Shown piece by piece: positions 25,326 through 63,981 of a DNA stretch of 64,000 bases. The notes below the pieces were generated by a model. The model saw only the letters and a program-made list of their open reading frames with translations. It was not told the DNA's origin and did not search any database. A program made the translations under genes and the position numbers. The stretch covers positions 124,001-188,000 of the forward strand of contig NZ_JABTYH010000005.1 of NCBI RefSeq assembly GCF_013314975.1. The letters are read 5' to 3'. Within the stretch, counting starts at the first letter, position 1. Each line of letters begins with the position of its first letter. This stretch comes from Pseudarthrobacter oxydans (GTDB taxonomy: Bacteria; Actinomycetota; Actinomycetes; Actinomycetales; Micrococcaceae).

Positions 25326-25406
25326 CTCTCAGTTGTACCTGCTGGAACCCGCCCCGGCTATGGGGAAAATCCGCAGCTGGGGCAGCGGGGCCGGCGCCAG
25401 GGCAGT

Positions 25407-33548: not shown

Positions 33549-33590
33549 CCCTCCACCCGAACCACCAAGAACCCAAGCAAAGGACTTTCC

Positions 33591-34499
33591 ATGTGCGGAA
33601 TCGCCGCGCTGCAGCTGCGCAATCCCTCGCTGCATCCCCGGATGGGCAGCCTGCTGTCCTCCATGCTGTGCCAGATCGTGGACCGCGGGCCGGACTCCGC
33701 CGGCCTCGCCGTCTACAACACCCCCGGCCTGGTGTCGGAAGGAACCTCCACGCTGAGCCTGCTCGGCAGGGACCAGGGCATCACGACGGCGGCCATCACC
33801 GCGGGCGTCGCGGCGCTCCTCCCGTCCGACGCACAGGCAGCCGTACAGGTGGTGGGCGACACCACCCTGGTGAGCGCCGCCGTCGGTACTGATCTGCTGG
33901 TGAAGGCCGTCAGCGAAACGCTGCGCGGATCCACCATCATTGGCCGCGGCGAACACGTGGCCGTGATGAAGAGCGTGGGCCACCCCATGGAGATCGCCGC
34001 CGATCACGGACTGGAGGCCATGGCCGGCAGCCAGGGCCTGTCCCACACCCGGATGGCCACGGAATCCGCCGTCACTGCGGGCGGCTCGCACCCCTTCTCC
34101 GTGGCCGACGACCTCTGCCTGGTCCACAACGGCTCCTTCTCCAACCACGCCACGGTCCGCCGCGACCTAAGGCGCGAAGGCGTGGTGTTCGATTCCGACA
34201 ACGACACCGAGGTGGGTGCCCGCTACGTCGCCTCCCGGCTCAAGCAGGGCGACACCCTCGAGGAAGCGCTGGTGAACCTGGGCAAGGTCCTGGACGGCTT
34301 CTACACCCTGGTGGTCACAACGGCGGACAGCATGGCCGTGGTCCGCGACCCCATCGCCTGCAAGCCCGCCATCATCGCCGAAACCGACGACTACGTGGCC
34401 ATGGCCTCCGAATACCGCGCCCTGGCCGGCCTGCCCGGCATCGACAACGCCCGCATCTTTGAACCGGAACCCGGAAAGGTCTACACATGGTCACTCTGA
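33591..34499 (+). CDS. Class II glutamine amidotransferase subunit (GlxB/MgsA-like)
   Basis: This 302-residue protein starts MCGIAALQL, so Cys2 is the N-terminal nucleophile after removal of Met. Further Ntn-amidotransferase blocks are RGPDSAGLAVY, SHTRMATESAVTAGGSHPF and DLCLVHNGSFSNH. It corresponds to the glutaminase domain of large-subunit glutamate synthase made as a separate chain. It overlaps the next gene by 13 bases. In N-methylglutamate synthase this subunit would release the amine from glutamine or gamma-glutamylmethylamide. Confidence 0.85.
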   Translation: MCGIAALQLRNPSLHPRMGSLLSSMLCQIVDRGPDSAGLAVYNTPGLVSEGTSTLSLLGRDQGITTAAITAGVAALLPSDAQAAVQVVGDTTLVSAAVGTDLLVKAVSETLRGSTIIGRGEHVAVMKSVGHPMEIAADHGLEAMAGSQGLSHTRMATESAVTAGGSHPFSVADDLCLVHNGSFSNHATVRRDLRREGVVFDSDNDTEVGARYVASRLKQGDTLEEALVNLGKVLDGFYTLVVTTADSMAVVRDPIACKPAIIAETDDYVAMASEYRALAGLPGIDNARIFEPEPGKVYTWSL

Positions 34500-35224
34500 C
34501 AGCCCCCGAAAGCACGGCAAACACCGCCCCGGAAGCCCGGGTGCCGGAGTCCACCACCGTGGACCTGGCCGTCACCAGCGTCCGGGAACTCAACCAGGCC
34601 ATCCACAACGCCGCGGACGGTCAAGCGTGGACTGTCACCAACCCGGGCGGCAAGCACAGCCTCGCCGTCGGCATCGACGCGGACATCGCGGTGACCATCG
34701 AAGGCCACGCCGGCTACTACGCCGCCGGGATGCACCAAAAAGGCGGCGTCACCATCACCGGCAACGCCGGCGTCGGCCTGGCGGAGAACATCATGTCCGG
34801 CCGCATCCACGTGACGGGCGATGCTTCCCAGTCCGCAGCCGCCACCGGCCACGGCGGCCTGGTGGTCATCGACGGCAACGCCGGTGCCCGGTGCGGGATC
34901 TCCATGAAGGGCGTGGACATCGTGGTCGGCGGCAACATCGGCCACATGTCCGCGTTCATGGCGCAGGCCGGACGCCTGGTGGTCTGCGGCGACGCCGGTG
35001 ACGCCCTGGGCGACTCGATCTACGAGGCGCGGATCTACGTCAAAGGGACGGTGGCCTCCCTCGGTGCGGACTGCGTCGAGAAGCCGCTGCGCGAAGAGCA
35101 CCTTGCCGAACTGGCAGAACTGCTGGCCGCCGCCGGCCGCACCGACAACCCTGCCGATTTCAAGCGCTACGGCTCCGCCCGGAACCTCTACCACTTCCAC
35201 GTCGACAACTCGACTGCCTACTAG
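34487..35224 (+). CDS. GXGXG-domain subunit (GlxC/MgsB-like)
   Basis: This 245-residue protein is mostly a right-handed beta-helix of the type found at the C-terminus of glutamate synthase (GXGXG domain). It has regularly spaced Gly-rich turns such as GHAGYYAAGMHQKGGVTITG, GNAGARCGISMKG and GDAGDALGDSIYEARIYVKG. In glutamate synthase this domain is structural and sits between the amidotransferase and FMN domains. It overlaps glxB by 13 bases, and glxD starts 9 bases later, so the three chains are made together. Confidence 0.85.
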   Translation: MVTLTAPESTANTAPEARVPESTTVDLAVTSVRELNQAIHNAADGQAWTVTNPGGKHSLAVGIDADIAVTIEGHAGYYAAGMHQKGGVTITGNAGVGLAENIMSGRIHVTGDASQSAAATGHGGLVVIDGNAGARCGISMKGVDIVVGGNIGHMSAFMAQAGRLVVCGDAGDALGDSIYEARIYVKGTVASLGADCVEKPLREEHLAELAELLAAAGRTDNPADFKRYGSARNLYHFHVDNSTAY

Positions 35225-35233
35225 GAGGCACCC

Positions 35234-36589
35234 ATGACCATCACCTCCATCCCCGCCCCGGCGCCCACAGACATCGCCGCCCTGGGCCTCCGCGAGTCCG
35301 CCACCTTTGACCGCGCCACCATCGCCGACATCCAGCGCGCCGCCTCCACCGGCGTGTACGACATCCGCGGCTGGGGCGCCAAACGCAAGGTCCCGCACTT
35401 CGACGACCTGCTGTTCCTGGGCGCCTCCATGTCCCGCTACCCGCTGGAGGGCTACCGCGAAAAGTGCGATACCGACGTCGTTCTCGGCGACCGGCACGCC
35501 ACCCGGCCCCTGCACCTGCAGACCCCGGTGACCATCGCCGGCATGAGCTTTGGCGCCCTCTCCGCCAACGCCAAGGAAGCGCTGGGCCGCGGCGCGTCCG
35601 AGGTGGGGACCTCCACCACTACGGGCGACGGCGGCATGACGCCTGAGGAGCGCGGCCAGTCCAAACACCTCGTCTACCAGTACCTGCCGTCCCGGTACGG
35701 CATGAACCCGGACGACCTCCGCAAGGCCGACGCCATCGAAATTGTGCTGGGCCAGGGCGCCAAGCCCGGCGGCGGCGGCATGCTGCTGGGCCAGAAGATC
35801 ACCGAACGCGTGGCCGGAATGCGCACCCTGCCTGTCGGCATCGACCAGCGTTCCGCCAGCCGCCACCCGGACTGGACCGGCCCGGACGACCTGGAAATCA
35901 AGATCGGCGAACTCCGCGAAATCACCGACTGGAAGACCCCCATCTACGTCAAGATCGGCGCCTCCCGGCCGTACTACGACACCGCCCTGGCCGTGAAGTC
36001 CGGGGCCGACGTGGTGGTGGTGGACGGCATGCAGGGCGGCACCGCTGCCACGCAGCAGGTGTTCATCGAAAACGTCGGGATCCCCACCCTCGCTGCCATC
36101 CCGCAGGCAGTGCAGGCCCTGCAGGAACTCGGGGTGCACCGGAAGGTCCAGCTCATCGTCTCCGGCGGTATCCGCACCGGGGCCGACGTCGCCAAGGCCA
36201 TGGCCCTCGGCGCAGACGCCGTGGCGATCGGAACGGCCGCGCTCATTGCCCTGGGCGACAACGATCCCCGCTACGCCGCCGAATATTCCGCCCTCGGTTC
36301 CGCCGCCGGGTTCTACGACGACTTCCAGGACGGCCGCGACCCCGCAGGCATCACCACCCAGGACCCGGAACTCTCCTCCCGCCTGGACCCGGTGGTTGCC
36401 GGCAAGCGCCTGGCCAACTACCTCCGTGTCCTCACCATGGAGGCCCAGACCATCGCCCGGGCGTGCGGCAAGTCGCACCTGCACAATCTGGAGCCCGAGG
36501 ACCTCGTGGCGCTCACCATCGAGGCCTCCGCCATGGCCCGGGTGCCGCTGGCCGGAACCTCGTGGATCCCGGGCCAAGGGAGCTTTTGA
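35234..36589 (+). CDS. FMN-dependent glutamate-synthase-like subunit (GlxD/MgsC-like)
   Basis: This 451-residue protein is the FMN barrel of glutamate synthase as a stand-alone chain: MSFGALSANAKEALGRGA, GQGAKPGGGGMLLGQKI, YVKIGASRPYYDTALAVKSGADVVVVDGMQGGTAA and VSGGIRTGADVAKAMALGADAVAIG. The whole chain has only two cysteines (about residues 78 and 415). The segment that holds the 3Fe-4S cysteines in classical GltB reads DGRDPAGITTQDPEL here, so no iron-sulfur cluster is expected. It should build glutamate or N-methylglutamate on the FMN face. An AGGAGG-like ribosome-binding site precedes it. Confidence 0.85.
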   Translation: MTITSIPAPAPTDIAALGLRESATFDRATIADIQRAASTGVYDIRGWGAKRKVPHFDDLLFLGASMSRYPLEGYREKCDTDVVLGDRHATRPLHLQTPVTIAGMSFGALSANAKEALGRGASEVGTSTTTGDGGMTPEERGQSKHLVYQYLPSRYGMNPDDLRKADAIEIVLGQGAKPGGGGMLLGQKITERVAGMRTLPVGIDQRSASRHPDWTGPDDLEIKIGELREITDWKTPIYVKIGASRPYYDTALAVKSGADVVVVDGMQGGTAATQQVFIENVGIPTLAAIPQAVQALQELGVHRKVQLIVSGGIRTGADVAKAMALGADAVAIGTAALIALGDNDPRYAAEYSALGSAAGFYDDFQDGRDPAGITTQDPELSSRLDPVVAGKRLANYLRVLTMEAQTIARACGKSHLHNLEPEDLVALTIEASAMARVPLAGTSWIPGQGSF

Positions 36590-37785
36590 TGCCCGGCGCT
36601 GGCTCCTCAGACTATGTGGTGGTGGGCGCGGGCCTGGCCGGTGCCGCCACCGCCTGGCAGCTTGCCGCCCGCGGCCACCAGGTGGCCATCCTGGAACGCA
36701 ACATCCCGGCCAGCCACGACGGCAGCTCCCACGGGTCCGCCCGGATCTTCCGCTACGCCTATCCGGACCCCTTCTACACCCGCGCGGTGGTGGAATCGAA
36801 AAGCCTGTGGGACGGACTCTCCGCCGCGTGCGGGACCCCGCTGATCACTCCCTGCGGTGCCGTGGACTACGGGCCGACGCGCAATCCGGGGCTGCTGGCG
36901 TCCGTGCTGGCTGACGAAGGCATCGAGCACCAGTTGCTTTCCGCCGCCGAAGCCCGGCAGCGCTGGCCGCAGTTCGCCTTCGACACGGACGTGCTGTGGC
37001 ACCCCGGCGCCGGGGTGATCGACGCCGAGACTGCCGTTAATGCCATGGTGTCCCTCGCGGTGGAACGCGGCGCCCGGCTGCTGACCGGCTGGGAGCTGGA
37101 GAGCCTGTCACGGCAGGGCGGCGGCTACCGGCTGCACTCCACCACCGGGCAAACGTACGACGCCGGCAACGTGGTGGTCAGCGCGGGCGGCTGGCTGCCG
37201 GCGCTGCTGGGCGGGCTGTCCCTCCCGGCAGGGTTCGTGGCCGGGCTCCCGGAGATCACCGTTCGGCAGGAGCAGGCCTTCCACTTCAGGTACCGGGACA
37301 ACGGTTTTGCGGACCACGCACCTGAATACCACGACGGCGGTGCTGCTTCCGGTGCCGGAGGCTGGCCGACGTTCATCCACAAGGCTGCCGGCATCCAGGC
37401 CTACGGCCTGCCGGGCGGGCGCGACGCAGGCTTCGCCGGCCAGAAGGTGGCGGAGTACAACGGTGGCAGGCTGATCCCTTCCGCGGCGCAGCAGACGGGT
37501 GCGGTGGACCCGGCAAACCGCCGCCGGGTGGTGGAGTATGTGCAGCGCTACCTGCCCGGCCTGGACCCGGAGCCCTACGCCGAAACAACCTGCTTATTCA
37601 CCAACACCCCCAGCGAGGACTTCCTCATCGACCGCGTGGACAACCTGACCGTCCTCTCGCCCTGTTCCGGCCACGGCGCCAAGTTCGCGCCGCTGCTCGG
37701 CCGGTGGGCGGCGGACCTGGCCGACGGCACAGGCGGTGTTCCCGGGCGGTTCCGGACCGCGTCCTCCACAGCTGCGACCACCTAG
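36589..37785 (+). CDS. Monomeric sarcosine oxidase / N-methyl amino acid oxidase-type flavoprotein
   Basis: This 398-residue FAD enzyme starts at ATG 36589, one base shared with the glxD stop, behind AAGGGAG. The Rossmann motif is at residues 9-20 (YVVVGAGLAGAA). Cys335 in ETTCLFTNTPSEDFLID aligns with the cysteine that binds FAD covalently in monomeric sarcosine oxidase (Cys315) and N-methyltryptophan oxidase. The SGHGAKFAPLLG segment near the end is also conserved. It oxidises a secondary amine with oxygen, releasing peroxide. Next to the GlxBCD set the substrate could be N-methylglutamate; sarcosine is the alternative. Confidence 0.85.
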   Translation: MPGAGSSDYVVVGAGLAGAATAWQLAARGHQVAILERNIPASHDGSSHGSARIFRYAYPDPFYTRAVVESKSLWDGLSAACGTPLITPCGAVDYGPTRNPGLLASVLADEGIEHQLLSAAEARQRWPQFAFDTDVLWHPGAGVIDAETAVNAMVSLAVERGARLLTGWELESLSRQGGGYRLHSTTGQTYDAGNVVVSAGGWLPALLGGLSLPAGFVAGLPEITVRQEQAFHFRYRDNGFADHAPEYHDGGAASGAGGWPTFIHKAAGIQAYGLPGGRDAGFAGQKVAEYNGGRLIPSAAQQTGAVDPANRRRVVEYVQRYLPGLDPEPYAETTCLFTNTPSEDFLIDRVDNLTVLSPCSGHGAKFAPLLGRWAADLADGTGGVPGRFRTASSTAATT

Positions 37786-37796
37786 GACGGATACCA

Positions 37797-39095
37797 GTGA
37801 GCCTTCCACAGACAATACCCACGGGAGACCCCGCAGCGGCTGCCCTGCCTTCCGGCAGGACCAGCGACCCCACTGTTGCCAGCCTCCTGCAGGACATCTC
37901 CACCATCGGCACGGACACCTTCCGGGGCGGGTACTCGCGGCCGGTGTTTTCCACCGCGGAAACGGACCTGCGCGGCTGGTTCGTTGAGCAGGCCGGCCGG
38001 CGGTGCCTGGATGTCCACACGGACCAGAACGGCATCATCTGGGCCTGGTGGGACACCGCCGCGCGGACCCGGAAGGACGCCGTCGTGACCGGAAGCCACC
38101 TCGATTCCGTCCCCGGCGGTGGTGGGTACGACGGCCCGCTCGGTGTCGCCTCGGCGTTGATCGCCGTCGACATCCTCAAAGCCCGCGGACTCCGGCCCCG
38201 GCGCCCGCTGGCCATTGCGGTCTTTCCGGAAGAGGAAGGCTCCCGGTTCGGCGTTGCGTGCCTGGGCTCCCGCCTCCTCACCGGATCGCTGGACCCGGAC
38301 AAAGCACGCCGGCTGAAGGACCCGGAGGGCAACACCTACGCGGATGTCGCCGCCGCGAACGGGCAGGACCCGCGGCTCATCGGAGCTGACTACGCAACGC
38401 TCCAGCAGCTGGGCGTCTTTGTGGAACTGCACGTGGAGCAGGGCAGGGGACTGGCTGACCTCGACCAGCCCGTGGCCATCGGTTCCTCGATCCTGGGCCA
38501 CGGCCGTTGGAAGCTCAGCATCAGCGGCCAGGGCAACCACGCCGGCACCACCCTGATGAGGGACCGCAGGGACCCCATGGTGGCCGCCGCGAAAATCATG
38601 GTCAGCATCCGGGACACTGCACGGAAGTACCGGGACGCCAGGGCCACCGTGGGCAGGGTCCAGCCGGTACCCGGGGGCACCAACGTGATCGCCTCACGCG
38701 TGGACCTGTGGATTGATGCCCGGCATCCGGACGACTCCGTCACCGCGGCGCTGGTGGAGGCCATCGGGCTGAATGCGCAGGTGTTCGCCGCGGAGGAAGG
38801 CTGCACCGCGGCCATGACCATGGAATCGCTCAGCCCCACGGTGCATTTCGACGGCGGGCTGCGCAGCCGGCTGCAGGAACTGCTCCCGGCCGCGCCGGTC
38901 CTGGCCACGGGGGCAGGGCACGACGCCGGCGTCCTGGGGCCACACCTGCCCACAGCCATGATCTTTGTCCGCAATCCCACCGGCATCTCCCATTCCCCCG
39001 AGGAACTGGTGGAGGACTGGGACGCCGAGGCCGGCGCACTCGCGCTGGCGGACTCACTCGCGGGGCTGGCAGGCGACGCCCGCGCACCCAGGTAG
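37797..39095 (+). CDS. N-carbamoyl-L-amino acid hydrolase / allantoate amidohydrolase-family enzyme
   Basis: This 432-residue M20-type amidohydrolase has probable zinc ligands visible as His101 (TGSHLDSV), Asp112 (GYDGPLGV), the Glu run 145-147 (FPEEEGSRFG), His212 (ELHVEQGRGL) and the last His in GISHSPEELV. The start GTG 37797 is six bases after AGGACGG and 11 bases after the preceding gene. Family members split N-carbamoyl amino acids, allantoate or ureidoglycine. Beside a sarcosine-oxidase-type gene, a carbamoyl or formyl derivative of an N-methyl amino acid would fit, but this is inference. Confidence 0.8.
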   Translation: MSLPQTIPTGDPAAAALPSGRTSDPTVASLLQDISTIGTDTFRGGYSRPVFSTAETDLRGWFVEQAGRRCLDVHTDQNGIIWAWWDTAARTRKDAVVTGSHLDSVPGGGGYDGPLGVASALIAVDILKARGLRPRRPLAIAVFPEEEGSRFGVACLGSRLLTGSLDPDKARRLKDPEGNTYADVAAANGQDPRLIGADYATLQQLGVFVELHVEQGRGLADLDQPVAIGSSILGHGRWKLSISGQGNHAGTTLMRDRRDPMVAAAKIMVSIRDTARKYRDARATVGRVQPVPGGTNVIASRVDLWIDARHPDDSVTAALVEAIGLNAQVFAAEEGCTAAMTMESLSPTVHFDGGLRSRLQELLPAAPVLATGAGHDAGVLGPHLPTAMIFVRNPTGISHSPEELVEDWDAEAGALALADSLAGLAGDARAPR

Positions 39096-39144
39096 CGCCG
39101 CCGCCGTCGTCCTCCCGCGCGGTTCCGTGCCTAAGATGGCTGCT

Positions 39145-39768
39145 ATGACCGAACACGCAGCCGATCACGCCGGTGACGACGACGGGGCTCAGGCTGACGG
39201 GCAGGCTGCGGGCCGGCTGGAGCAGGTCATCGCACGCCAGGTGCGGCACTACCGTACGGCAGCCGGGCTGTCCTCGGCGGAACTGGCCGCCCGGACCGGC
39301 CTTTCCAAGGCGATGATCTCCCGGGTGGAAACCGCCACCACCTCGTGTTCCCTCACCACGCTGCAGCGGCTTGCGGACGGGCTGGAAGTCCCGGTCACCG
39401 CATTGTTCCGCGGCGCAGACACGGACCGCGACGCCACCTTCACCAAGAGCGGCCAGGGAAGCCTTACGGTCCGGAGCGGCACCCGGCACGGCCACGAATA
39501 CCGCGTCCTGGGCACGCTCAAGGGCAGGACCGACGCCCTGGAACCCACGCTGGTGACGCTCACCGACGCCTCCGACGTGTTCCCGCTGTTCCAGCACCCC
39601 GGCACGGAGTTCATCTACATGCTCGCGGGCAGGATGGTGTACGGCCACGGCTCATACGAGTACGCCATGGAGCCGGGCGATTCCCTGCTGCTGGACGGCG
39701 AAGGGCCGCACGGGCCGCTGGAACTGCTGGACCTCCCCATCACGTTCCTGGCCATCTCCGCCAAGTAG
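39145..39768 (+). CDS. XRE-family regulator with C-terminal cupin
   Basis: This 207-residue protein has an acidic N-terminus, a helix-turn-helix at about residues 40-90 (GLSSAELAARTGLSKAMISRVETATTS) and a small C-terminal cupin (FQHPGTEFIYMLAGRMVYGHG). I start it at 39145. A TAAGAT box ends seven bases before the ATG, with no Shine-Dalgarno, so a leaderless message is likely; the ATG at 39136 lies within that box. Regulators of this build often control amine and amino acid catabolism and sit at the end of the operon they govern, as here. Confidence 0.85.
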   Translation: MTEHAADHAGDDDGAQADGQAAGRLEQVIARQVRHYRTAAGLSSAELAARTGLSKAMISRVETATTSCSLTTLQRLADGLEVPVTALFRGADTDRDATFTKSGQGSLTVRSGTRHGHEYRVLGTLKGRTDALEPTLVTLTDASDVFPLFQHPGTEFIYMLAGRMVYGHGSYEYAMEPGDSLLLDGEGPHGPLELLDLPITFLAISAK

Positions 39769-39834
39769 GATCCAGCCCTTCCCACCCCCACCCCTGCGCT
39801 CTGCGGGACGGCTGAAACTTCCGTGTGGATGACT

Positions 39835-51965: not shown

Positions 51966-53135
51966 ATGAGTACTGATGCTTCCCGTCGACGCGACGTCAC
52001 CGTTGCCGACGTCGCCAAGGCCGCGCAGGTGTCCAAGGCCCAGGCGGCCCGTGCCCTGGGAAATTACGGCGCAGTGAGCGAGGACGTCCGGGAGCGGGTG
52101 CAGGCCGCCGCGGAGGAGCTGAACTACCGGCCCAACGAGCTCGCCCGCAGCATGAACACGGGGAAGTCCAACACCATCGGCGTGGTGGTGGGCGACATCG
52201 AAAACCCGCACTTCGGCCTGGCCACCCGGGGAATAACTGACACCGCCAAGAGGAGCGGCTTCAACGTCATCCTGGTCAACACGGATGAGGACAGGGCTGC
52301 GGAAGTGGACGCCGTCAGGGTGCTGCTGGACAAGCGGGTTGACGGCCTGATCGTGGCACCCGCCTCTTCCGTGGAGACCCAGCACCTCCAGGAAGTCCAC
52401 AGCTCGGGAAGGCCGCTGGTCCTGCTGGACCGTACGGCGCAGGGGCTGGATGTGGACACGGTGGCCGTGGACATGGAAGGCATTTCCCATGAGTCAACCC
52501 GCTATTTGATTGAGGCCGGACACAGCCGGATCGCCTTCATCTCCACGCTTCGGACGAATGACTCCTACGCCACGGGCCTGTCGCTGGGCTCTTCCCAGAT
52601 CTCGGACCGGCGGGACGGAATCATGCGGGCGTTCCGGGAAGCGGGTCTCAAGGAACCCGACGATCTGGTGCGCTTCAACGCCGACGGACCGGAAACCATC
52701 AAGAAGATCACCCGTGAACTGCTGCAGCAGCCGGACCCTGCAACGGCCATCATCGCCTCTGACGGCCTGATCGGGCTCAGCGTTGTGGAGGCCATCCAGG
52801 ACCTCGGCCTCGCTATTCCGGATGATGTCTCGTTCCTCATGTACGACGATTTCGCCTGGACCCGCCTCACCAGGCCTCCTTTGACGGTGATCGCCCAGCC
52901 TGTGTACGAGATGGGCGTGGCAGCAGCCGAGGCCCTCATCCGGCAGATCCAGGGCAGGAAAGCGCCGGCGGCCAAACCCGAATTCGCCGCGACCCTCGTG
53001 AAGCGCGGCTCGGTGGGCGGGCCGTCCGGCGGCAAGGGCGGCCACGACGGCCGGCGGAAGGAAAACCTGCCTACGACGAAAACTTCGCCGGACGTTCATT
53101 TCCCCCTCAACGGCGCACCGGCCCAGTCCACGTAG
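51966..53135 (+). CDS. LacI-family regulator of the opine/amino-acid-type importer operon
   Basis: From ATG 51966 (GAAAGG five bases before it) the protein has 389 residues. It has the LacI helix-turn-helix (TVADVAKAAQVSKAQAARALGNYGAVSEDVRERV), hinge helix (RPNELARSMNTG) and a sugar-binding-type effector domain. About 45 residues extend past the usual end (after TLVKRGSV), rich in Gly, Lys and Pro. It is divergent from the importer operon with the double operator in between. A LacI regulator for an amino-acid-type transporter suggests that the substrate has a sugar part. Confidence 0.88.
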   Translation: MSTDASRRRDVTVADVAKAAQVSKAQAARALGNYGAVSEDVRERVQAAAEELNYRPNELARSMNTGKSNTIGVVVGDIENPHFGLATRGITDTAKRSGFNVILVNTDEDRAAEVDAVRVLLDKRVDGLIVAPASSVETQHLQEVHSSGRPLVLLDRTAQGLDVDTVAVDMEGISHESTRYLIEAGHSRIAFISTLRTNDSYATGLSLGSSQISDRRDGIMRAFREAGLKEPDDLVRFNADGPETIKKITRELLQQPDPATAIIASDGLIGLSVVEAIQDLGLAIPDDVSFLMYDDFAWTRLTRPPLTVIAQPVYEMGVAAAEALIRQIQGRKAPAAKPEFAATLVKRGSVGGPSGGKGGHDGRRKENLPTTKTSPDVHFPLNGAPAQST

Positions 53136-53182
53136 CGTGAAAAACGTTCCGAGCACCACCCGTACCAGCCGTGAGGATTGCC

Positions 53183-53788
53183 ATGATCACCAGCCAGCAG
53201 CCCGTCGTCCTGACCAGCAGCAGCATCGACTCCAGCGACGAGGACGTCGTGGAGGCGAACGTCAGCGTTGTGGATGCCATGCACAGCGCCCTGTTGCGGG
53301 CCGAAGAGATGTCGCCCGTGGCCGTGCGCAGCTATTGCGTGGACTTCTATCTGACCCAGGCGTTGGAGGGAGGCTTCGCGCAGTACGTGTTCACCGCCGT
53401 CGACCGCTCCGAAACGGACACCCTGGTCCGCGAAGGCATGGCGGGCATGGGTGCCCCTGCCCATCTTGACCTCTTCAACCGGGCTGTCGAGGCATTTGAT
53501 GACTTGTCCGAAGAAGACGAGGAGCGCTACCTGGACGGTGGCCTGGATGAGGACTCCGAGGAAGTTCCCGACGGCGTCCTCCGGATGGAGGAGCTTGACG
53601 GCGAGTTTGAGGATCTGCTGGAGAGGGAGAACATCACGGCGCTCAACGCCGCCTGGCTCCGCGGCCAGGCCGAGCTGCTGGTGCTGGACGACGAGGAGGT
53701 CGGCGCCTACATTGAGCGGCGTGCGTCAATGATTCCCGACCTGCCGGAGCGCCAGGCGCAGGCGGACGCCGAAATGATCGGCGCCTGA
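53183..53788 (+). CDS. DUF4375/DMP19-like protein
   Basis: This 201-residue acidic protein has a helical core with VRSYCVDFYLTQALEGGFAQYVFTA, which resembles the Gly-Gly-Phe-x-Gln-Tyr/Phe motif of the DUF4375 (DMP19-like) family. The region after it is very rich in Asp and Glu. I start it at ATG 53183, seven bases after GAGG, rather than the GTG at 53171. Function is unknown. Confidence 0.65.
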   Translation: MITSQQPVVLTSSSIDSSDEDVVEANVSVVDAMHSALLRAEEMSPVAVRSYCVDFYLTQALEGGFAQYVFTAVDRSETDTLVREGMAGMGAPAHLDLFNRAVEAFDDLSEEDEERYLDGGLDEDSEEVPDGVLRMEELDGEFEDLLERENITALNAAWLRGQAELLVLDDEEVGAYIERRASMIPDLPERQAQADAEMIGA

Positions 53789-53875
53789 ACAGACGCTCCC
53801 GACCAGACGCGCCAGACCAAAAACGCCTGATCACGCGCGCCTGACCGCTTCGTACCGGGTGGCTGCCGGCCGCGG

Positions 53876-54748
53876 CTACGCCAGCTGCACCCGGGTGACT
53901 TTTACGGCGCCTTCCAGCACCAGCCGGAAGGCGCCGCCGCGCACGCGGAATGTTGTGCCGGGGCGAAGCTGAATCACAAGCTCACCACTGAAGCCCGCGG
54001 CAACCCTGGCGCTGCCCGCGGTGTTCCAGGTGTCCGCAGGGCCGGGTACCTGGATGCGGACCAGGCCGGCAGGCCCCGCCGGTTCGCCGGAAACCAGGTC
54101 AAGCATCACCTCATGACCGCCGTCGGCAGGGGCCAGCTCCCAGCCGCGGTAGAGCGCCCAGCCGGGCCGGGTAGTGTCCGCCGGTGCGATCGCCGTGCCG
54201 GCCAGCGGCGTTTCGGGCACCAGCGCCAGATGGTGGCAGGAGTCGAAGTTCTCAGCCCGGAACCACCGGCCGGCCCGGCGCCCGGATCCGGCGCTCCCCG
54301 CCACACTGAATGGGACTGCCAGCGGAAGATCCTCCGCGGACGCGCCCACCAGAAGCTGGTACGTACCGGGTTCCACCAGCATCCGTTCCTCCACCACGCT
54401 GTAGGTGGCAAGCCTCTCGAGCGGCACCCGGATCCTTGCGGTGGCCGTGCCTCCGGCCGGGACCTTCACCCGCTGGTGGCCCACCAGGAGCCGGCGGGGG
54501 AAATCGAAGCGGTGGTCCGGGGCGGACGCGTACACCTGCACCAGTTCCCACGCCGGGCGGGCGCCGGCGTTGCGCAGTTCCACCACGAGTTCCACCTGGT
54601 CCGCACCCTGGGGGCCTTCGCCCGGCAGTTCGCGCTGGGCCACAGATTCGTAGTGCACCTCGCCGTACGTCAGTCCGTGCCCCAGCGCGTACAGGGGTTC
54701 CGCGCGGCTGTACAGGTACGTGGAGCGGGAAGTGATGATGTCGTGATC
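53876..54748 (-). pseudogene. GH3 beta-glycosidase, C-terminal remnant
   Basis: The leftward frame from about 54748 to 53876 encodes only the last 290 or so residues of a GH3 enzyme. The segment TYLYSRAEPLYALGHGLTYGEVHYE is the classic end of the GH3 second domain. It is followed by a fibronectin-III-like domain (VELVVELRNAGARPAWELVQVYASAP) and a beta-rich, carbohydrate-binding-like tail. The catalytic barrel and nucleophile are missing. Upstream of about 54748 the same frame reads through the antisense of a solute-binding protein, so the 5' two-thirds has been lost at a junction. Confidence 0.85.
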
Positions 54749-55720
54749 TCGGACGCCATCTTCTACCGCGCGGACCTCTTCGAGGAACTCGGCGCCAAGC
54801 CGCCCACCTCCGCCGACGAATACCGCACTCTGGCCAAGGAACTCACGGACGAATCGAAGAATCGCTGGGGTTCGGAAGACGTCTGGACCGGCGCGCAGAT
54901 CATGCACGGCGTGGTCCCCAAGTGGAAGCAGGTGGACGGCACGCTGCAGAACAAGGTGGAAACCGAAGAGTACCGGGCTGCCCTTGAGTGGACGGCGAAA
55001 CTGTTTGCCGACGGCTCGGTCCACCCGGACGCCGTGGCCGGCAACGCGCAGCAGTCCAAGCAGCGCTTCGAATCCGGCGCCTCGCTGATGGCCTCCGACG
55101 GCATGGGCTCCTGGCACGAGGCCCTGGCCCGCGTCCTTCCGTCCAATCCGAAGTTCAACATGCAGCCCATGGACTACTTCGCCCCGGACGGCGGGAAGCC
55201 CACCCTGTTCCGGGCCCAGCCGGCAGCGATCTTCAGCTTCATCAAGAAGACGGAGCCCGCCAAGGTGGAGGAGATGCTGGCGCTGGCCAACTTCATGGCG
55301 GCCCCGTTTGGCACCGAGGAGAACGTGCTGATCAACAACGGTGTGGAGGGCGTCCACTTCACCAGGGACGCCCAGGGCATCCCGAAGGCCACGGCCAAGG
55401 GCACCGAGGAAGTCACCAGCACCTACGCGTTCCTGGTGAACGCCCCGATCGTGAACTCCATGGTCCAGTACCCGGGGCTGGTCCAGTCCCAGTCCGAGTG
55501 GGAGGCGCGCCAGGCACCCAACGTTGTGGAGGACGCCTTCTTCGGCATGCAGATCCAGGAGCCAGCCAAGTTCGGCTCACTGTCCAAGCCCTTTGACGAC
55601 CTTGCCAAGGACATCATCCGCGGCCGCAAGAGCATGAAGGACCTCGATGCCGAACTCGCCACCTGGAAGAGCAAGGGCGGCGACGAACTCCGGGACTTCT
55701 ACGCCGGATTCCTGGCCTAG
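54737..55720 (+). pseudogene. Sugar ABC solute-binding protein (LplA-type), lacking its 5' part
   Basis: The rightward frame from about 54737 to 55720 encodes about 327 residues beginning DVVISDAIFYRADLFEELG and ending LRDFYAGFLA. This is the C-terminal part of an LplA-type binding protein, which is normally above 500 residues. The signal peptide, lipobox and first lobe are absent. Upstream in-frame sequence is only the antisense of the GH3 remnant. The two permease genes follow directly, so the operon has lost both its binding protein and its promoter. Confidence 0.85.
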
Positions 55721-55723
55721 GAG

Positions 55724-56683
55724 ATGGCAAGGATGAGCACCGGAACAGAGCGCAAGGCCCCCGCCCTGAGGCCGAAGGCCAACCTCAGACTGCGGTTCAA
55801 CCGGGACCGCTCCCTGGTGTTCATGGCACTGCCCGCCGTGATCCTGCTGGCCGTCTTTGCCTACCTTCCCATGCTGGGCAACGTGGTGGCCTTCCAGGAC
55901 TACTCCCCGTATGTGGGGATTCCGGACAGCCCCTGGGTGGGGATGGACAACTTCGCGCGGGTGCTGGCGGACCCGGACTTCTGGCTGGCCGTCAAGAACA
56001 CCCTGGTGATCACGGCGTTCCAGCTGGTGTTCTTCTTTCCCATCCCCATCGCCCTGGCCATGCTGCTCAACTCCCTGGTCAACCCGCGGCTCCGGGCCGC
56101 CATCCAGGCCGTGGTGTACCTGCCGCACTTCTTTTCCTGGGTGCTGGTGGTCTCCGTGTTCCAGCAGATCTTCGGCGGCGCCGGGTTGCTGAACCAGTCG
56201 CTGCGCGCCAACGGCTGGCAGGCCGTGGACATCATGACCAACCCGGACACGTTCCTGTTCCTGCTCACCTCCCAGGCCGTCTGGAAGGACGCAGGCTGGG
56301 GCATCATCGTGTTCCTCGCAGCCCTCAGTGCCATCGACCCCGCGCAGTATGAAGCAGCGGCCGTGGACGGGGCCGGCCGGTGGAAGCGCATGTGGCACGT
56401 CACCCTTCCCGGGCTCCGCAGCGTCATCGTTCTGCTGCTCATCCTCCGGCTGGGCGACTCGCTGACCGTGGGCTTCGAGCAGATGATCCTGCAGCGGGAC
56501 GCCGTGGGGGCCGAGGCCTCCGAGGTCCTGGACACCTTCGTGTACTACACCGGCGTGCAGAACGGCGACTGGAGCTACGCTGCCGCCGCAGGCCTGATCA
56601 AGGGCCTGGTGAGCCTGGCGCTGATCCTGACCGCCAACAAAGTTGCCCACATCTTCGGTGAGAGCGGTGTCTATTCCAAATGA
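55724..56683 (+). CDS. Sugar ABC transporter permease (LplB-type)
   Basis: This 319-residue protein with about six spans has the EAA loop QYEAAAVDGAGRWKRMWHVTLPGLRSVI and the FYLPMLG-like start (VFAYLPMLGNVVAFQDYSP) typical of LplB permeases. It starts three bases after the truncated binding-protein gene and overlaps the next permease by four bases. The gene is intact, but its promoter was probably lost with the upstream deletion. Confidence 0.9.
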   Translation: MARMSTGTERKAPALRPKANLRLRFNRDRSLVFMALPAVILLAVFAYLPMLGNVVAFQDYSPYVGIPDSPWVGMDNFARVLADPDFWLAVKNTLVITAFQLVFFFPIPIALAMLLNSLVNPRLRAAIQAVVYLPHFFSWVLVVSVFQQIFGGAGLLNQSLRANGWQAVDIMTNPDTFLFLLTSQAVWKDAGWGIIVFLAALSAIDPAQYEAAAVDGAGRWKRMWHVTLPGLRSVIVLLLILRLGDSLTVGFEQMILQRDAVGAEASEVLDTFVYYTGVQNGDWSYAAAAGLIKGLVSLALILTANKVAHIFGESGVYSK

Positions 56684-57633
56684 GCACACTAACCAATAAG
56701 GCGCCCACTCGAGCCAGTGCCGCCAAACCTCCCAGGCAGCCGCGCACCAAACCGGAACGCCCTATCTGGGACGAAGAACCCGGAGCAGCGGCGAAGGCCG
56801 GCAAGATCGTGGTGCTCGCCGTCGTCGTCCTGGCAGTCCTGGGACCGCTGTACACGATCGTCCTCACCAGCATCTCCTCCCAGGCCACCATCACGCAGGC
56901 CGGCGGACTGGTCCTGGTCCCCGGGGAAATCTCCTTCGCCGCCTACCAGCAGATCCTCAGCGGCGGGGTGGTCACCAGGGCGGTGCTGGTCAGCGTGGGC
57001 GTCACGGCCACCGGAACGGCCCTGAGCATGGTGGTGTCCATCCTCTGCGCGTACGGCCTGTCCCGGCCGGGGTCCTTCGCCCACACGCCTATCCTGTTCA
57101 CCCTGCTGATCACCATGTTCTTTAGCGCAGGCATCATCCCGGCGTACCTGCTGGTGTCCGGCCTGGGCCTGATCAACACCTACTGGGCGCTGATCCTGCC
57201 CAGCTGCATCTCGGTGTTCAACATCATCATCCTGCGCGGCTTCTTCATGGGCATCGACCGGGGGATCCTGGACAGCGCCAGGATTGACGGCGCCAGCGAG
57301 TGGCGCACCCTCACCCAGATCGTGCTGCCCATGTCCAAGGCCGTCACCGCCGTCATCGCCCTGTTTTACGGGGTGGGCTACTGGAACGCGTTCTTCAACG
57401 CCATCCTTTACATCAACGACAGCTCCATGAACCCGCTGCAGGTGGTGCTCCGGTCCTACGTGCTCCAGGGTGTTTCTGTTCCCGGCCAAGTGGATGTTGG
57501 CACCGGGGCGGCGGCAGGCCCGGCGCTGCAGATGGCCGTGATCGTGCTCGCCATGATCCCCATCCTGATCGTCTACCCCTTCGTGCAGAAGCACTTCACC
57601 AAAGGCGTGATGATCGGCGCGGTCAAGGGATGA
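56680..57633 (+). CDS. Sugar ABC transporter permease (LplC-type)
   Basis: This 317-residue permease with six spans has the EAA loop ILDSARIDGASEWRTLTQIVLPMSKAV and the YPFVQKHFTKGVMIGAVKG ending common to LplC proteins. It is translationally coupled to the LplB-type permease. No ATPase gene is present, as usual for this class, which shares an MsmX-type ATPase. Confidence 0.92.
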   Translation: MSTLTNKAPTRASAAKPPRQPRTKPERPIWDEEPGAAAKAGKIVVLAVVVLAVLGPLYTIVLTSISSQATITQAGGLVLVPGEISFAAYQQILSGGVVTRAVLVSVGVTATGTALSMVVSILCAYGLSRPGSFAHTPILFTLLITMFFSAGIIPAYLLVSGLGLINTYWALILPSCISVFNIIILRGFFMGIDRGILDSARIDGASEWRTLTQIVLPMSKAVTAVIALFYGVGYWNAFFNAILYINDSSMNPLQVVLRSYVLQGVSVPGQVDVGTGAAAGPALQMAVIVLAMIPILIVYPFVQKHFTKGVMIGAVKG

Positions 57634-57659
57634 GCGTTCCCGTGTCCCTGCGGCAGCTG

Positions 57660-58694
57660 TCAGCGGACCGCCGCGGTGCTTGCCCCCTCGGAGAGGGTGG
57701 GGGCGATGAGCCGCAGCTCGGCGGGCTTGGCCAGGCTCAGCCGGTCCATCACCATCTCCACGGCGGCGCGGCCGATGTCCATGGCGGGGATGGACACCGC
57801 CGTCCAGGGCAGGAAGGCGGACGTGGCCACATCGGCGGGGGCTATGACCACCACCGAGATGTCTTCCGGGACGGAGAGGCTGTGCGCGGCGAGGTTCTCG
57901 CGCAGGATGGGCAGCAGTCCCTCGTTGTGCACCAGGAGGGCGGTGATGGCCTCCGGACCGGCGAAGACCTTGTCCAGCGCGCGGGCCAGGTCCTTGGAGT
58001 TCGCCTCGCAGGCCACCGAAACATGCGTGACCTCAAGTTCCCGGCATGCCTCCTCAAAACCGCGCAGGGCCCGGTCCGCATAGGTGGCGTGCCGGCGCAG
58101 CGAGGCGGGCGGGGAACCGATGAAGGCGATGCCGCGGTGGCCCAGCTCCACCAGATGGCGGACCGCGGTGCGGGAGGCGCCGGCGAAGTCGAAGTCAACG
58201 CAGCTGAGGCCACGCGGATCGTCCGGCATGCCGATCAGCACTGCGGGCTTGTCCAGCTTGGCCAGCACGGGGATGCGCGGATCGCGGGCCTCGATGTCCA
58301 TCATCACCAGGCCGTCCACCATGGACTGGGACGTCACCCGCTCAATGCTGCCGGCGTCGTCCTGGGTCAGGAGCAGGACGTCCTGGTTGAACGTCCGGGC
58401 CGTAGTCACCACGGCGGTGACGAACTGCATCACCACTCCCACGTTGACGTCCGCGCGGAGGGGCACCACCAGCCCCAGGACGTTGGAGCGGCTGGAGGCC
58501 AGAGCGCGGGCACTGGACCGGGGACTGTACTTCAGCCGCCGCATGGCCGCTTCGACGATTTCGCGGGTTTCTTTCGATATGGGACGGTTCCCGCTCATCA
58601 CGTAGGACACGGTGCTCGTGGAAACCCCTGCCTCTTTGGCCACGTCACTGATGGTCGCCGCCGTTGAAGCCTTTCGATTACTCATATCCATCAT
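57660..58694 (-). CDS. LacI-family regulator of the oligosaccharide locus
   Basis: This 344-residue protein has the LacI helix-turn-helix TISDVAKEAGVSTSTVSYVMSGNRPISKETREIV and hinge helix (SPRSSARALASSRS). The effector domain is sugar-binding-like. Starts at 58694, 58691 or 58685 are all possible. Its 5' end is only about 16 bases from the divergent GH42 gene, so the GH42 promoter must lie inside or against its coding region. It is convergent with the LplC-type gene. Confidence 0.9.
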   Translation of the reverse strand: MMDMSNRKASTAATISDVAKEAGVSTSTVSYVMSGNRPISKETREIVEAAMRRLKYSPRSSARALASSRSNVLGLVVPLRADVNVGVVMQFVTAVVTTARTFNQDVLLLTQDDAGSIERVTSQSMVDGLVMMDIEARDPRIPVLAKLDKPAVLIGMPDDPRGLSCVDFDFAGASRTAVRHLVELGHRGIAFIGSPPASLRRHATYADRALRGFEEACRELEVTHVSVACEANSKDLARALDKVFAGPEAITALLVHNEGLLPILRENLAAHSLSVPEDISVVVIAPADVATSAFLPWTAVSIPAMDIGRAAVEMVMDRLSLAKPAELRLIAPTLSEGASTAAVR

Positions 58695-58710
58695 TTAACC
58701 AAGGAATTCC

Positions 58711-60771
58711 ATGCATCCTCGAAGCCACGGCCTGAGCGCCGTGACAGAGCGGGCCGGGCTGCTCTTCGGCGCCGATTACAACCCCGAGCAGTGGCCGGAG
58801 GAAAGCTGGCCGGAGGACATCCGGCTGATGCAGCAGGCCGGCATCAACCTGGTCACCCTCGGCGTCTTCAGCTGGGCACGCCTGCAGCCAACCGAGGGCA
58901 CCTGGGACTTCGGCTGGCTTGACCGGATCCTTGCCCTCCTCGACGAGGGAAACATCAAGGTCTGCCTGGCCACGCCCACCGCATCGCCGCCGCCCTGGCT
59001 GGGGCACCGCTACCCCAGCACGCTGCCCACGGACGCCGCCGGGACGACGCTCTGGTACGGCTCCCGCAACCAGTTCTCGCCGTCGTCGGCCGTGTACCGC
59101 AGCGCCGCACGGCAGGTCACCGCAGCGCTCGCCGAGCGGTACGGCCAGCACCCCGCCGTGGTGATGTGGCACGTGGGGAACGAGCTGGGACAGATCAGTT
59201 ACGACGACGAAACGGCCGCCGCGTTCCGCACCTGGCTGCTGCGCCGCTACGGCTCCCTGGAACACCTGAACTCGGCCTGGGGGACCACTTTCTGGAGCCA
59301 GGGCTACAGCACCTGGGAGGAAATCCTGCCGCCGCGCACGGCGCCGTACCTCCACAACCCCACGCAGGTCCTGGATTTCAAGCGCTTCACCTCGGAGTCG
59401 CTGCTCAGACTTTTCACCGCTGAACGGGACATCATCCGCCAGTACTCCCCGGATGTACCGGTCACCACCAACCTGATGGGGTTCTTCCGCGGCGCGGACT
59501 ACTTCAGCTTCGCGGGGGAAACGGACCTGGTGGGCAACAACTGGTACACCGATCCCGGGCAGCCGCAGACCTGGGAACTGGGCGCCCTCACCCACGACCT
59601 GTGCCGCGGACTGGCCGGAGGAACACCCTGGCTACTGATGGAATCGGCAGCCTCCGCGGTGAACTGGCGGCCCCACAACAGCGCCAAGGAACCCGGGGCC
59701 CTCCGCGTGGACTCGTTCTCCGCCCTGGCCCGCGGTTCCGACGGCATCTGCTTCTTCCAGTTCCGCCAGTCCGCCTTCGGCGCCGAACGCTTCCACTCTG
59801 CCGTGGTGCCGCTGGCAGGGGAGGACACCCGCGTGTTCCGCGAAGTCGCGGAGCTCGGCTCCCAGTTGCAGGACCTGCGGCTCCTCGCCGGGACCCCGGC
59901 GCCGTCCCGGATCGCTGTCCTCTTCGACTGGAACAGCTGGTGGGCGGCGGAGGCCCCGGACTGCCCCACGGACAGGCTCGGCGTCCTGGACCAGCTGCAG
60001 GCCTACTACCGGCCGCTGCTGCGGCGCGGCCTGTCCGTGGAGGTGGTGCACCCCTCAACGCCGCTGGACCGGTTCGACCTGGTGCTCGTCCCCAGCCTCT
60101 TCCTCCTCACCGAGGACAACGCCGGGGCGCTGGCGTCCTGGGTGCACCGGGGCGGGACGGCCGTCGTCGGGCCCTTCACCGGGGTGGCGGACAGCAACGG
60201 CCACCTCCGGCAGGGGCGGTTCCCCTCTGTCCTGGCGTCCATGCTCGGCGTCAGCGGCGAGGAATGGCGGCCCCTGGCGGAAGGAATCGGCCTCGACTTC
60301 GCGGCGCCCCAGGACGGCGTCACTGCAGATGTGCCGGCCGGGCTCCAGGCCACTGTCTGGTCCGAGGACCTCCGCCTGGACGGCCCCGGCGCTGCGGCGG
60401 CGGCCACGTTTGCCTCCGGCTCCCTGGCTGGAAAACCGGCGGTAGTCCGGAACAGCCACGGCAGCGGCACCGCCTGGTACGCGGGGTGCGACCTGCCCGG
60501 TCCTGCGCTGGGGCACATCGTGGGGGAGGCCCTGGCAGCAGCCCGCATCTCCTTGCCGGTGGCAGGAACGCTGCCGGACGACGTCGAACTCGCCACCCGC
60601 GGCGGCCACCACTTCCTGCTGAACCACGGCGCGGAACCACGCACCGTGACGCTCACCGGGCAGTCTGTGGACGTGCTCACCGGGGACGCCTGCGGGCCCC
60701 GCCTGGCCCTGGAACCGTACGGCGCCCTGGTCCTCAAAGACAGCCCAGACCCTCTTGAGAACGGAAACTGA
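58711..60771 (+). CDS. GH42 beta-galactosidase
   Basis: This 686-residue enzyme has the GH42 three-domain plan. The acid/base is Glu158 (MWHVGNELG) and the nucleophile is Glu311 (PWLLMESAASAVNW). The N-terminal FGADYNPEQWPEESWPEDI is the family signature. The last third is the trimerisation (flavodoxin-like) domain and a beta domain. There is no signal peptide, so it acts on imported oligosaccharides. AAGGAA precedes the ATG at 58711; GTG 58741 is a second candidate. It is coupled to GH31 downstream (6 bases between them). Confidence 0.93.
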   Translation: MHPRSHGLSAVTERAGLLFGADYNPEQWPEESWPEDIRLMQQAGINLVTLGVFSWARLQPTEGTWDFGWLDRILALLDEGNIKVCLATPTASPPPWLGHRYPSTLPTDAAGTTLWYGSRNQFSPSSAVYRSAARQVTAALAERYGQHPAVVMWHVGNELGQISYDDETAAAFRTWLLRRYGSLEHLNSAWGTTFWSQGYSTWEEILPPRTAPYLHNPTQVLDFKRFTSESLLRLFTAERDIIRQYSPDVPVTTNLMGFFRGADYFSFAGETDLVGNNWYTDPGQPQTWELGALTHDLCRGLAGGTPWLLMESAASAVNWRPHNSAKEPGALRVDSFSALARGSDGICFFQFRQSAFGAERFHSAVVPLAGEDTRVFREVAELGSQLQDLRLLAGTPAPSRIAVLFDWNSWWAAEAPDCPTDRLGVLDQLQAYYRPLLRRGLSVEVVHPSTPLDRFDLVLVPSLFLLTEDNAGALASWVHRGGTAVVGPFTGVADSNGHLRQGRFPSVLASMLGVSGEEWRPLAEGIGLDFAAPQDGVTADVPAGLQATVWSEDLRLDGPGAAAAATFASGSLAGKPAVVRNSHGSGTAWYAGCDLPGPALGHIVGEALAAARISLPVAGTLPDDVELATRGGHHFLLNHGAEPRTVTLTGQSVDVLTGDACGPRLALEPYGALVLKDSPDPLENGN

Positions 60772-60777
60772 CATCCC

Positions 60778-62952
60778 ATGAAATTTACCGACGGCTACTG
60801 GCTGTACCGCAAAGGCTTCTCGGCGCTGCACCCGCGCGACGTTTCCGACGTTGTGGAGGACGAGCGGAGCCTGACGGTCTACGCACCCACCAAGCGCATC
60901 ACCTCCCGCGGCGATGCCCTGAACCTTCCACAGCTGACGGTCACCTTCGACGCGCCCCTGCCGGACGTCATCGGCGTGACCATCGAGCACTTCCAGGGCG
61001 GGCTGGACAACGGCCCGCACTTTGACGTGAACCGCACGGGACCGGCGCCGCAGTTCAGCCGGGACGCGGACACGGCCAGCATCACCTCCGGCGGGCTCAC
61101 GGCACGGATCAGCACGGCCGGGGACTGGGGCGTCGATTTCCTGGGGAACGGCAGGCTGCTGACCACCTCCACGCCGCGCAGCGTCGGCGTCATCACGGAC
61201 GACGGCGGGCGGACCTTTGTGCACGAACAGCTCAGCCTGGGCGTGGGCACCAACGTGTACGGCCTGGGCGAGCGCTTCGGCGCGTTCGTCAAGAACGGCC
61301 AGTCGGTAGACATCTGGAACGAGGACGGCGGCACCTCCAGCGACCTCGCCTACAAGAACGTGCCGTTCTTCATCACCAACGACGGCTACGGGGTGTTCGT
61401 GAACCACCCGGAGAAGGTGTCCTTCGAGGTGGGGTCGGAGGTGGTGTCCCGAACCCAGTTCAGCGTGGAGGGCCAGAGGCTCCAGTACTTCATCGTCCAC
61501 GGGCCCTCGCCCAAGGACATCATCCGCCGGTACACCGAACTGACCGGGCGGCCATCGCGGATCCCGGCCTGGTCATACGGCCTGTGGCTCTCCACCTCCT
61601 TCACCACGGACTACGACGAAAAGACCGTGAACTCGTTCATTGACGGCATGGAGGAGCGGAAGCTGCCCCTGTCCGTCTTCCACTTCGACTGCCACTGGAT
61701 GAGGTCCTTCCACTGGAGCGACTTCGTCTGGGACCCCGCCACGTTCCCGGACCCGGAAGGCATGCTGGCCCGGCTCCACGACCGGGGGCTGAAGGTCTGC
61801 GTCTGGATCAACCCGTACATCGCCCAGCGCTCGCACCTGTTCCGGGAGGGGCTGGAGCGGGGCTTCCTGGTCAAGCGGCCGGACGGGTCGGTGTGGCAGT
61901 GGGACATGTGGCAGGCCGGCATGGGGCTGGTGGACTTCACCAACCCTGACGCCGTGCTCTGGTACCAGGACAAACTCCGCGGCCTGCTGGGCCAGGGTGT
62001 GGACTCGTTCAAGACGGACTTCGGCGAGCGCATCCCCACCGATGTGGTGTGGCACGACGGGTCCGATCCGGACAGGATGCACAACTACTACGCGCAGCTG
62101 TACAACAGGACGGTTTTCGACCTGCTGTCCAAGGAGCTGGGCGAAGGCGAAGCCGTGGTGTTTGCGCGATCCGCCACGGCCGGCGGCCAGACCATGCCGG
62201 TGCACTGGGGCGGGGACTGCGAATCCACGTTCGCTGCCATGGCTGAATCGCTGCGCGGCGGGCTGTCCCTGGCGGCGTCGGGCTTCTCCTTCTGGAGCCA
62301 CGACATCGGCGGCTTTGAGGGCACGCCCGAGCCGGAAATCTTCAAGCGGTGGATCGCGTTCGGGCTGCTGTCCTCGCACTCGAGGCTGCACGGGTCCAAC
62401 TCCTACCGTGTGCCGTGGCTGGTGGATGAGGAATCCGTGGACGTGCTCCGGCACTTCACGGAGCAGAAGATGCGGCTGATGCCCTACCTGCAGATGGCGG
62501 CGGAGCAGGCGTACGCGGAGGGGATTCCCCTGATGCGTCCGCTTTTTATGGAGTTCCCCCAGGACCCGGGCTGCGCGCACCTGGACCGGCAGTACATGCT
62601 GGGGCCGGACATCCTGGTGGCACCGGTCATGGACCCGTCCGGCACCGTGTCCTTCTACCTGCCCGAGGGCACCTGGACGCACCTGGAAACAGGGGAGCAG
62701 CTGGCGGGCCCGCGCTGGCACCGCAAGGAGTATTCGGTGATGCAGGCTGCCACGTGGGTCAGGGAAGGGGCTGTGCTGCCCATCGGTACAGTGTCGGACC
62801 GGCCGGACTACGACTGGGCACGGGACATGCAGTTCCGGGCGTTCGCGGCGGCGGACGGGACACGGCGCATCGACGTGCCGTCGCCGGACGGTTCCACCAC
62901 GGACTTTGAGGTGACCGTCAGCGGCGGCGACGTGTCCGCCGTCGTAGCCTGA
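60778..62952 (+). CDS. GH31 alpha-xylosidase (YicI-type)
   Basis: This 724-residue enzyme follows E. coli YicI. The nucleophile Asp414 is in FKTDFGERIPTDVVW (YicI Asp416) and the acid/base Asp480 is in HWGGDCEST (YicI Asp482). KTDFGERIPTDV distinguishes alpha-xylosidases from alpha-glucosidases. It removes alpha-xylose from xyloglucan oligosaccharides or isoprimeverose. It lies between GH42 and the aldo/keto reductase, sharing one base with the latter. It has no signal peptide. Confidence 0.92.
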   Translation: MKFTDGYWLYRKGFSALHPRDVSDVVEDERSLTVYAPTKRITSRGDALNLPQLTVTFDAPLPDVIGVTIEHFQGGLDNGPHFDVNRTGPAPQFSRDADTASITSGGLTARISTAGDWGVDFLGNGRLLTTSTPRSVGVITDDGGRTFVHEQLSLGVGTNVYGLGERFGAFVKNGQSVDIWNEDGGTSSDLAYKNVPFFITNDGYGVFVNHPEKVSFEVGSEVVSRTQFSVEGQRLQYFIVHGPSPKDIIRRYTELTGRPSRIPAWSYGLWLSTSFTTDYDEKTVNSFIDGMEERKLPLSVFHFDCHWMRSFHWSDFVWDPATFPDPEGMLARLHDRGLKVCVWINPYIAQRSHLFREGLERGFLVKRPDGSVWQWDMWQAGMGLVDFTNPDAVLWYQDKLRGLLGQGVDSFKTDFGERIPTDVVWHDGSDPDRMHNYYAQLYNRTVFDLLSKELGEGEAVVFARSATAGGQTMPVHWGGDCESTFAAMAESLRGGLSLAASGFSFWSHDIGGFEGTPEPEIFKRWIAFGLLSSHSRLHGSNSYRVPWLVDEESVDVLRHFTEQKMRLMPYLQMAAEQAYAEGIPLMRPLFMEFPQDPGCAHLDRQYMLGPDILVAPVMDPSGTVSFYLPEGTWTHLETGEQLAGPRWHRKEYSVMQAATWVREGAVLPIGTVSDRPDYDWARDMQFRAFAAADGTRRIDVPSPDGSTTDFEVTVSGGDVSAVVA

Positions 62953-63981
62953 TGGAATCTGTCACCGAGGCGAGGATACCCACAGCCATGAAGACCCTGG
63001 GCCGCACTGGCCTCCCTGTCAACGATGTGTGCGTCGGCACGAGTTCGCTGGGAAACCACCCGCGGAACGGCACCGCGGCGGAGCGGAAGGCAACGGCAGT
63101 GGCGGCCGTCCGCGCCGCCGCGGAACGGCACCGCGGCGGAGCGGAAGGCAACGGCAGTGGCGGCCGTCCGCGCCGCCCTGGCCGGGCCTTTCAACTTCCT
63201 GGACACCTCCAACGAATACGGTCACGACGGCGGCAGCGAGCGCTGGATCGGGCAGGTCATCCGGGAAGCGGGCGGGCTGCCGGAAGGCTTTGTCCTGTCC
63301 ACGAAAGTGGATCCCATCCTGGGGACGGCGGACTACTCCGGGGACCGTGTCCGGCGCAGCGTGGAGGAAAGCCTTGAGCGGCTGGGGCTGGACAGGCTGC
63401 CGCTGGTCCACTTCCACGATCCGGAGAAGATCAGCTTCGGGGAGGGTGTTGCGGCGGGCGGGCCGTTGGAGGCGCTCGTTGATCTGAGGGACCAGGGGGT
63501 GATTGGGCACCTCGGCGTGGCCGGCGGACCCATCGACCTGGAACTGAAGTACCTGGCCCTGGATGTGTTCGACGTGGTGATCAGCCACAACCGGTACACG
63601 CTGGTCGACCAGACGGCGGAGCCGCTCATCGAGGACGCACGACGGCGGGGCGTCGCCTTCATCAATGCCGCGCCTTTTGGCGGCGGCCTGCTGGTGAAGG
63701 GGCCCGATGCCACCACCAACTACTGTTACCGGCCGGCCAGCCCGGAACTGCTGGGCCGTGTCCGGAAGATGCAGGAGCTCTGCCGCGAGTATTCGGTGCC
63801 GCTCGCCGCCGCGGCCCTGCAGTTCTCCACCCGCGATCCCCGCATCACCTCAACCATCGTGGGGATGGCGGAGCCAGAGCGGGTGGCCGAGGCGGCACGC
63901 CTGGCGCAGTGGAGCATCCCGGAGGACTTCTGGGGACGCATGCTGCCGTTGGCTTCGGCCGGGAATGCGGATTTGGGTTAG
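62952..63981 (+). pseudogene. Aldo/keto reductase disrupted by a 58-bp tandem duplication
   Basis: The reading frame opens at ATG 62952 (one base shared with the GH31 stop) with MKTLGRTGLPVNDVCVG from 62988. It is thrown out of frame by an exact 58-bp duplication at 63060-63177. Taking out one copy joins VAAVRAALAGPFNFLDTSNEYGHDGGSERWIG and gives a normal 323-residue aldo/keto reductase of the sugar dehydrogenase type (STKVD lysine, LVHFHDPE histidine). As sequenced, no full-length product can be made. Either the duplication is real and inactivating or it is an assembly error. Confidence 0.88.
63060..63177. repeat. Exact 58-bp tandem duplication
   Basis: Bases 63060-63119 match 63118-63177 at every position, a period of 58 bp with two copies. 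Since 58 is not a multiple of three, it shifts the frame of the aldo/keto reductase. Perfect identity means that the event, or the artefact, is recent. Confidence 0.92.

Follow-up and report, generated by a model that had tools for sequence, protein, structure and literature searches.

The 64,000-nucleotide stretch of Pseudarthrobacter oxydans DNA analyzed here (the window) contains two gene remnants arranged head to head, which are very probably the product of a single recent chromosomal deletion of ~2.9–3.0 kb that also left an importer without its binding protein (Table 1). DNA present in relatives is missing at a defined breakpoint, both pseudogene remnants keep open frames, and the junction is unique among the matched genomes. 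In the lineage leading to this Arthrobacter/Pseudarthrobacter genome, the event would have truncated a GH3 glycosidase gene and a solute-binding-protein (SBP) gene, each from its 5' end, and removed the divergent intergenic region that separated them. The lost intergenic region presumably held the promoters and operator.

Table 1. Features at and around the junction, in window coordinates.
Feature	Coordinates	Strand	Remarks
DMP19-like gene	53171..53788	+	205 aa, compared to 288 aa in OY3WO11
GH3 glycosidase remnant	53876..54744	-	last ~288 of ~985 residues
Deletion crossover	54744..54744	.	1-bp overlap (T) between flanks
Solute-binding-protein (SBP_bac_1) remnant	54744..55720	+	~325 C-terminal residues of ~566 kept; N-terminal part, export signal included, gone
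First ABC permease	55724..56683	+	frame open, N-terminal linker shortened
Second ABC permease	56680..57633	+	intact
LacI-type regulator	57660..58694	-	intact; belongs to the conserved locus
GH42 beta-galactosidase-type enzyme	58711..60771	+	intact; adjoins the locus also in aligned relatives

The original prediction, of a GH3 C-terminus on the minus strand meeting a solute-binding-protein C-terminus on the plus strand, is borne out by Pfam matches to an Fn3-like domain (E 2.8e-17, minus strand of 53876–54744) and to SBP_bac_1 (E 1.4e-9, plus strand from 54744), the latter covering profile positions 112–301 of 307. The GH3 remnant retains the end of GH3_C, the Fn3-like domain, and the C-terminal tail, whereas its native start and catalytic domain are gone. 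Both 5' parts are indeed missing, but to call them halves was rough: the GH3 gene has lost ~71% of its length, including the complete catalytic domain and almost the entire GH3_C domain, and the SBP gene ~43%, everything before approximately residue 240. Likewise, the frames had been described as nonsense beyond the junction. Nothing recognizable is encoded there, as neither extension gives a Pfam hit at E <= 0.001, but the frames do not close; in this GC-rich DNA, the plus frame stays open back at least to 54113 and the minus frame at least to 55357.

At base level, the junction was inspected in nine relatives out of 14 loci. In all nine of these named relatives the crossover is one base, T54744, with the GH3 flank matching up to this T and the SBP flank from it onward. 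The sequence GATGTCGTGATC, which had been read as a 12-base stretch shared by the two frames, is thus the seam of two unrelated flanks, composed of GATGTCGT on the GH3 side and TGATC on the SBP side, with T alone common to both in 9/9 relatives inspected. Relative to these genomes, 2912–3010 bp are missing. Among the direct repeats of at least 14 nt listed for positions 53000–56500, none includes 54744.

A search of 206 genus genomes, including the strain's own, with a 1.9-kb query (E <= 1e-20; two candidates scored per genome) returned 19 with a match, the strain itself and 18 others. Within the best two candidates each, both arms are found in 12 of the 18 with order and orientation conserved, at distances of 2.91–3.01 kb obtained by subtracting the listed places. 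In these 12 genomes the arms separate at, or no more than 13 bases away from, query position 895 (window 54744), and in any of the 18 a match continues beyond the junction for at most 13 bases (best two candidates each). The remaining six (G061, G079, G099, G107, G151, and G169) show SBP-side matches only, short in G079, again within the best two candidates. Because only two candidates were scored per genome, the absence of an arm in these six and of any match in the other 187 genomes is weak evidence. The relatives at the 14 loci are named Arthrobacter and Pseudarthrobacter, with one Cellulomonas included.

In Arthrobacter sp. OY3WO11 (G021, L028), both genes are whole and divergent, encoding proteins of 985 aa (GH3) and 566 aa (SBP), and the listed start codons are separated by 193 bp. 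A relative of exactly this kind, in which complete genes diverge from the region between them, had been set as the test of a deletion. Its GH3 enzyme contains the catalytic (PF00933), C-terminal (PF01915), and Fn3-like (PF14310) domains, and in NCBIfam the relative's full protein scores best with models for xylosidases and glucosidases, though far short of the model cut-offs. OY3WO11 (L028, L062) and P. polychromogenes (L063) share with the window the order and orientation of GH3, SBP–permease–permease, LacI, and GH42 genes, and DNA identity with the window is ~96% over the SBP remnant and 86–87% over the GH3 remnant. The window, in contrast, lacks the 2960–3010 bp that both have between the regions corresponding to the remnants. 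The flanks in relatives are collinear around intervening DNA, with the intact genes themselves read in OY3WO11 alone. The deletion of both 5' ends and the intergenic region is confirmed by the 12 of 18 relatives that keep the arms ~3 kb apart and by the intact genes of OY3WO11; what the original prediction did not foresee is that two smaller private deletions flank it.

Two further differences between the window and these relatives were observed. Over 56000–63974, identity with P. polychromogenes is 97–100% per kb, compared to 89–96% across the preceding six kb (50–55 kb), which is consistent with a recent recombination tract. OY3WO11 lacks a 7.8-kb segment that the window has at 32004–39793 and that is aligned in P. 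polychromogenes as well.

The loss looks recent relative to the divergence of the compared species, since there is no stop inside the GH3 or the SBP remnant and the SBP remnant has a dN/dS of 0.04 against OY3WO11 and against P. polychromogenes, which equals the value between those two. For the GH3 remnant, dN/dS is 0.19 against each of these relatives, compared to 0.18 between them, and 0.29 against AK04, compared to 0.25 and 0.23 for OY3WO11 and P. polychromogenes, respectively, against AK04. Private changes in the GH3 remnant of the window comprise 6 nonsynonymous and 7 synonymous substitutions, compared to 4 and 18 summed over OY3WO11, P. polychromogenes, and AK04 (outgroup AFG7.2). With such small numbers, this ratio is possibly a first sign of relaxed selection.

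The main alternative named in the original prediction was misassembly, in which ~3 kb were dropped when the assembler joined the flanks. The assembly is a draft, with a 4.69-Mb genome in 90 contigs. However, short-read assemblers join sequences at shared k-mers, so that a collapse would call for a breakpoint repeat longer than the assembler k-mer, and the flanks share 1 bp in 9/9 relatives inspected; moreover, the window is without any N. The lost 3 kb were not found on other contigs among the best 40 of 209 candidates; that search was without a positive control, and a like search of relatives did recover window DNA at 67–96% identity. Since the breakpoints offer no repeat that could collapse and the missing DNA did not turn up among the scored candidates, an artefact is very unlikely. 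It is exceedingly improbable that the short genes are functional, with the SBP remnant or the GH3 tail expressed and active. Both remnants are open and the dN/dS of the SBP remnant is low, but a low value would be expected simply from selection before the deletion, and both genes are without their native starts, the export signal and the catalytic domain having gone too. The GH3 remnant matches only the Fn3-like domain, without the N-terminal catalytic domain (PF00933) of a functional enzyme, and the SBP remnant lacks the complete pair of SBP_bac_1 lobes and the export signal, which in the relative's protein is a putative Tat-like lipoprotein signal read by eye. In addition, no sigma-70-like promoter was found at 53750–55800, a weak test given that 0.1 would be expected.

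The two smaller deletions, within ~1 kb on each side, are unexplained by a single 3-kb event. The DMP19-like gene is shorter by 249 bp (83 codons) than in OY3WO11, an in-frame loss flanked by copies of GCGGACGC(C/T)GA, an 11-base near-exact direct repeat. In the first permease gene, the low-complexity N-terminal linker (window 55740–55775) is shortened in frame by 135 bp compared to P. polychromogenes and by 153 bp compared to OY3WO11. A scan restricted to collinear alignments longer than 150 bp identified only three losses of at least 100 bp in the window relative to OY3WO11, at 53772, 54744, and ~55754–55758; the same three are seen relative to P. polychromogenes, plus an 11-kb difference at 25382.

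These three losses may have arisen together, by complex repair or recombination, or have been imported together from another lineage, a reading that is compatible with the 3-kb deletion being real. Their clustering within 1,986 bp is suggestive: by a post hoc hand estimate, random placement of three events so close in the ~56.2 kb of shared window sequence has a probability of ~0.004, and across the 11 loci aligned the longer form is kept by all relatives with flanking alignments at the outer sites (6/6 at the first, 10/10 at the third). On the other hand, the outer two deletions keep the frame and sit in repeat-rich coding stretches, as independent slippage would leave, whereas the middle deletion is without such a repeat. 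The outer two are adequately accounted for by repeat-rich sequence, and a joint origin or import is judged unlikely; the narrower proposal that all three private deletions within 2 kb stem from one clustered multi-break or template-switching event is quite improbable. If it were true, an ordinary-looking gene loss would record local chromosome breakage and rejoining in a Ku/LigD-bearing soil actinobacterium.

For the single 3-kb deletion, the simplest way in which the ends would have been rejoined, with 1 bp shared between them, is Ku/LigD end joining or some other illegitimate process. In bacteria, Ku/LigD end joining can produce illegitimate deletions whose junctions show little or no homology. 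In the strain's own genome, a Ku gene adjoins a frame that encodes the polymerase and phosphoesterase domains of LigD; this frame runs off the examined stretch, so that the ligase domain lies outside what was seen. The presence of Ku and LigD genes makes end joining plausible, and the pathway is probably available in this genome. The locus resembles known Ku/LigD illegitimate deletions both in its 1-bp overlap (9/9 relatives inspected) and in the accompanying Ku and LigD genes, and the junction at 54744 is compatible with this pathway, which may have acted here.

The importer that remains would consist of two permeases without a binding protein or native promoter region. A search of the strain's own genome with the relative's 566-aa SBP yielded the remnant, with the match starting at residue 240 and covering the C-terminal part only, and one distant paralogue. 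This single paralogue was considered as a substitute binding protein and rejected, being only 27% identical, and the two permeases are therefore probably without a partner. The predicted lack of a promoter for the operon follows from the loss of the intergenic region, and both transcription and cognate oligosaccharide uptake through the importer would presumably have been lost.

Across its own genome, the strain is without a PF01915 match and has a single match each to PF14310, which is the remnant at 53876–54744, and to PF00933. Four relatives (G021, G102, G104, and G134) each have 4–5 matches to PF01915, 3–5 to PF14310, and 5–7 to PF00933, and PF00933 searches in seven relatives gave 3–11 matches each. 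Absence of PF01915 is not rare, since 43 of 206 genus genomes, the strain's own included, have no match at E <= 0.001. At the one other GH3 site examined, the flanks on contig C34 enclose ~6.6 kb without a listed match to the relative (best 40 of 310 candidates). The idea that GH3 genes were lost systematically, each leaving a comparable scar, was rejected, given that PF01915 absence is not rare in the genus and that this other site does not show such a scar among the candidates scored.

No account of the GH3/SBP remnant locus appears among the titles and abstract openings surveyed. The junction is an ordinary, recent, and well-resolved gene loss, caught early, in a soil actinobacterium. For annotation, 53876–54744 and 54744–55720 should not be called normal genes. 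Of the strain's multi-domain GH3 enzymes, only a remnant was found, and one oligosaccharide importer has probably been lost. The loss event is recent and resolved to the base, and undeleted relatives are known for it.
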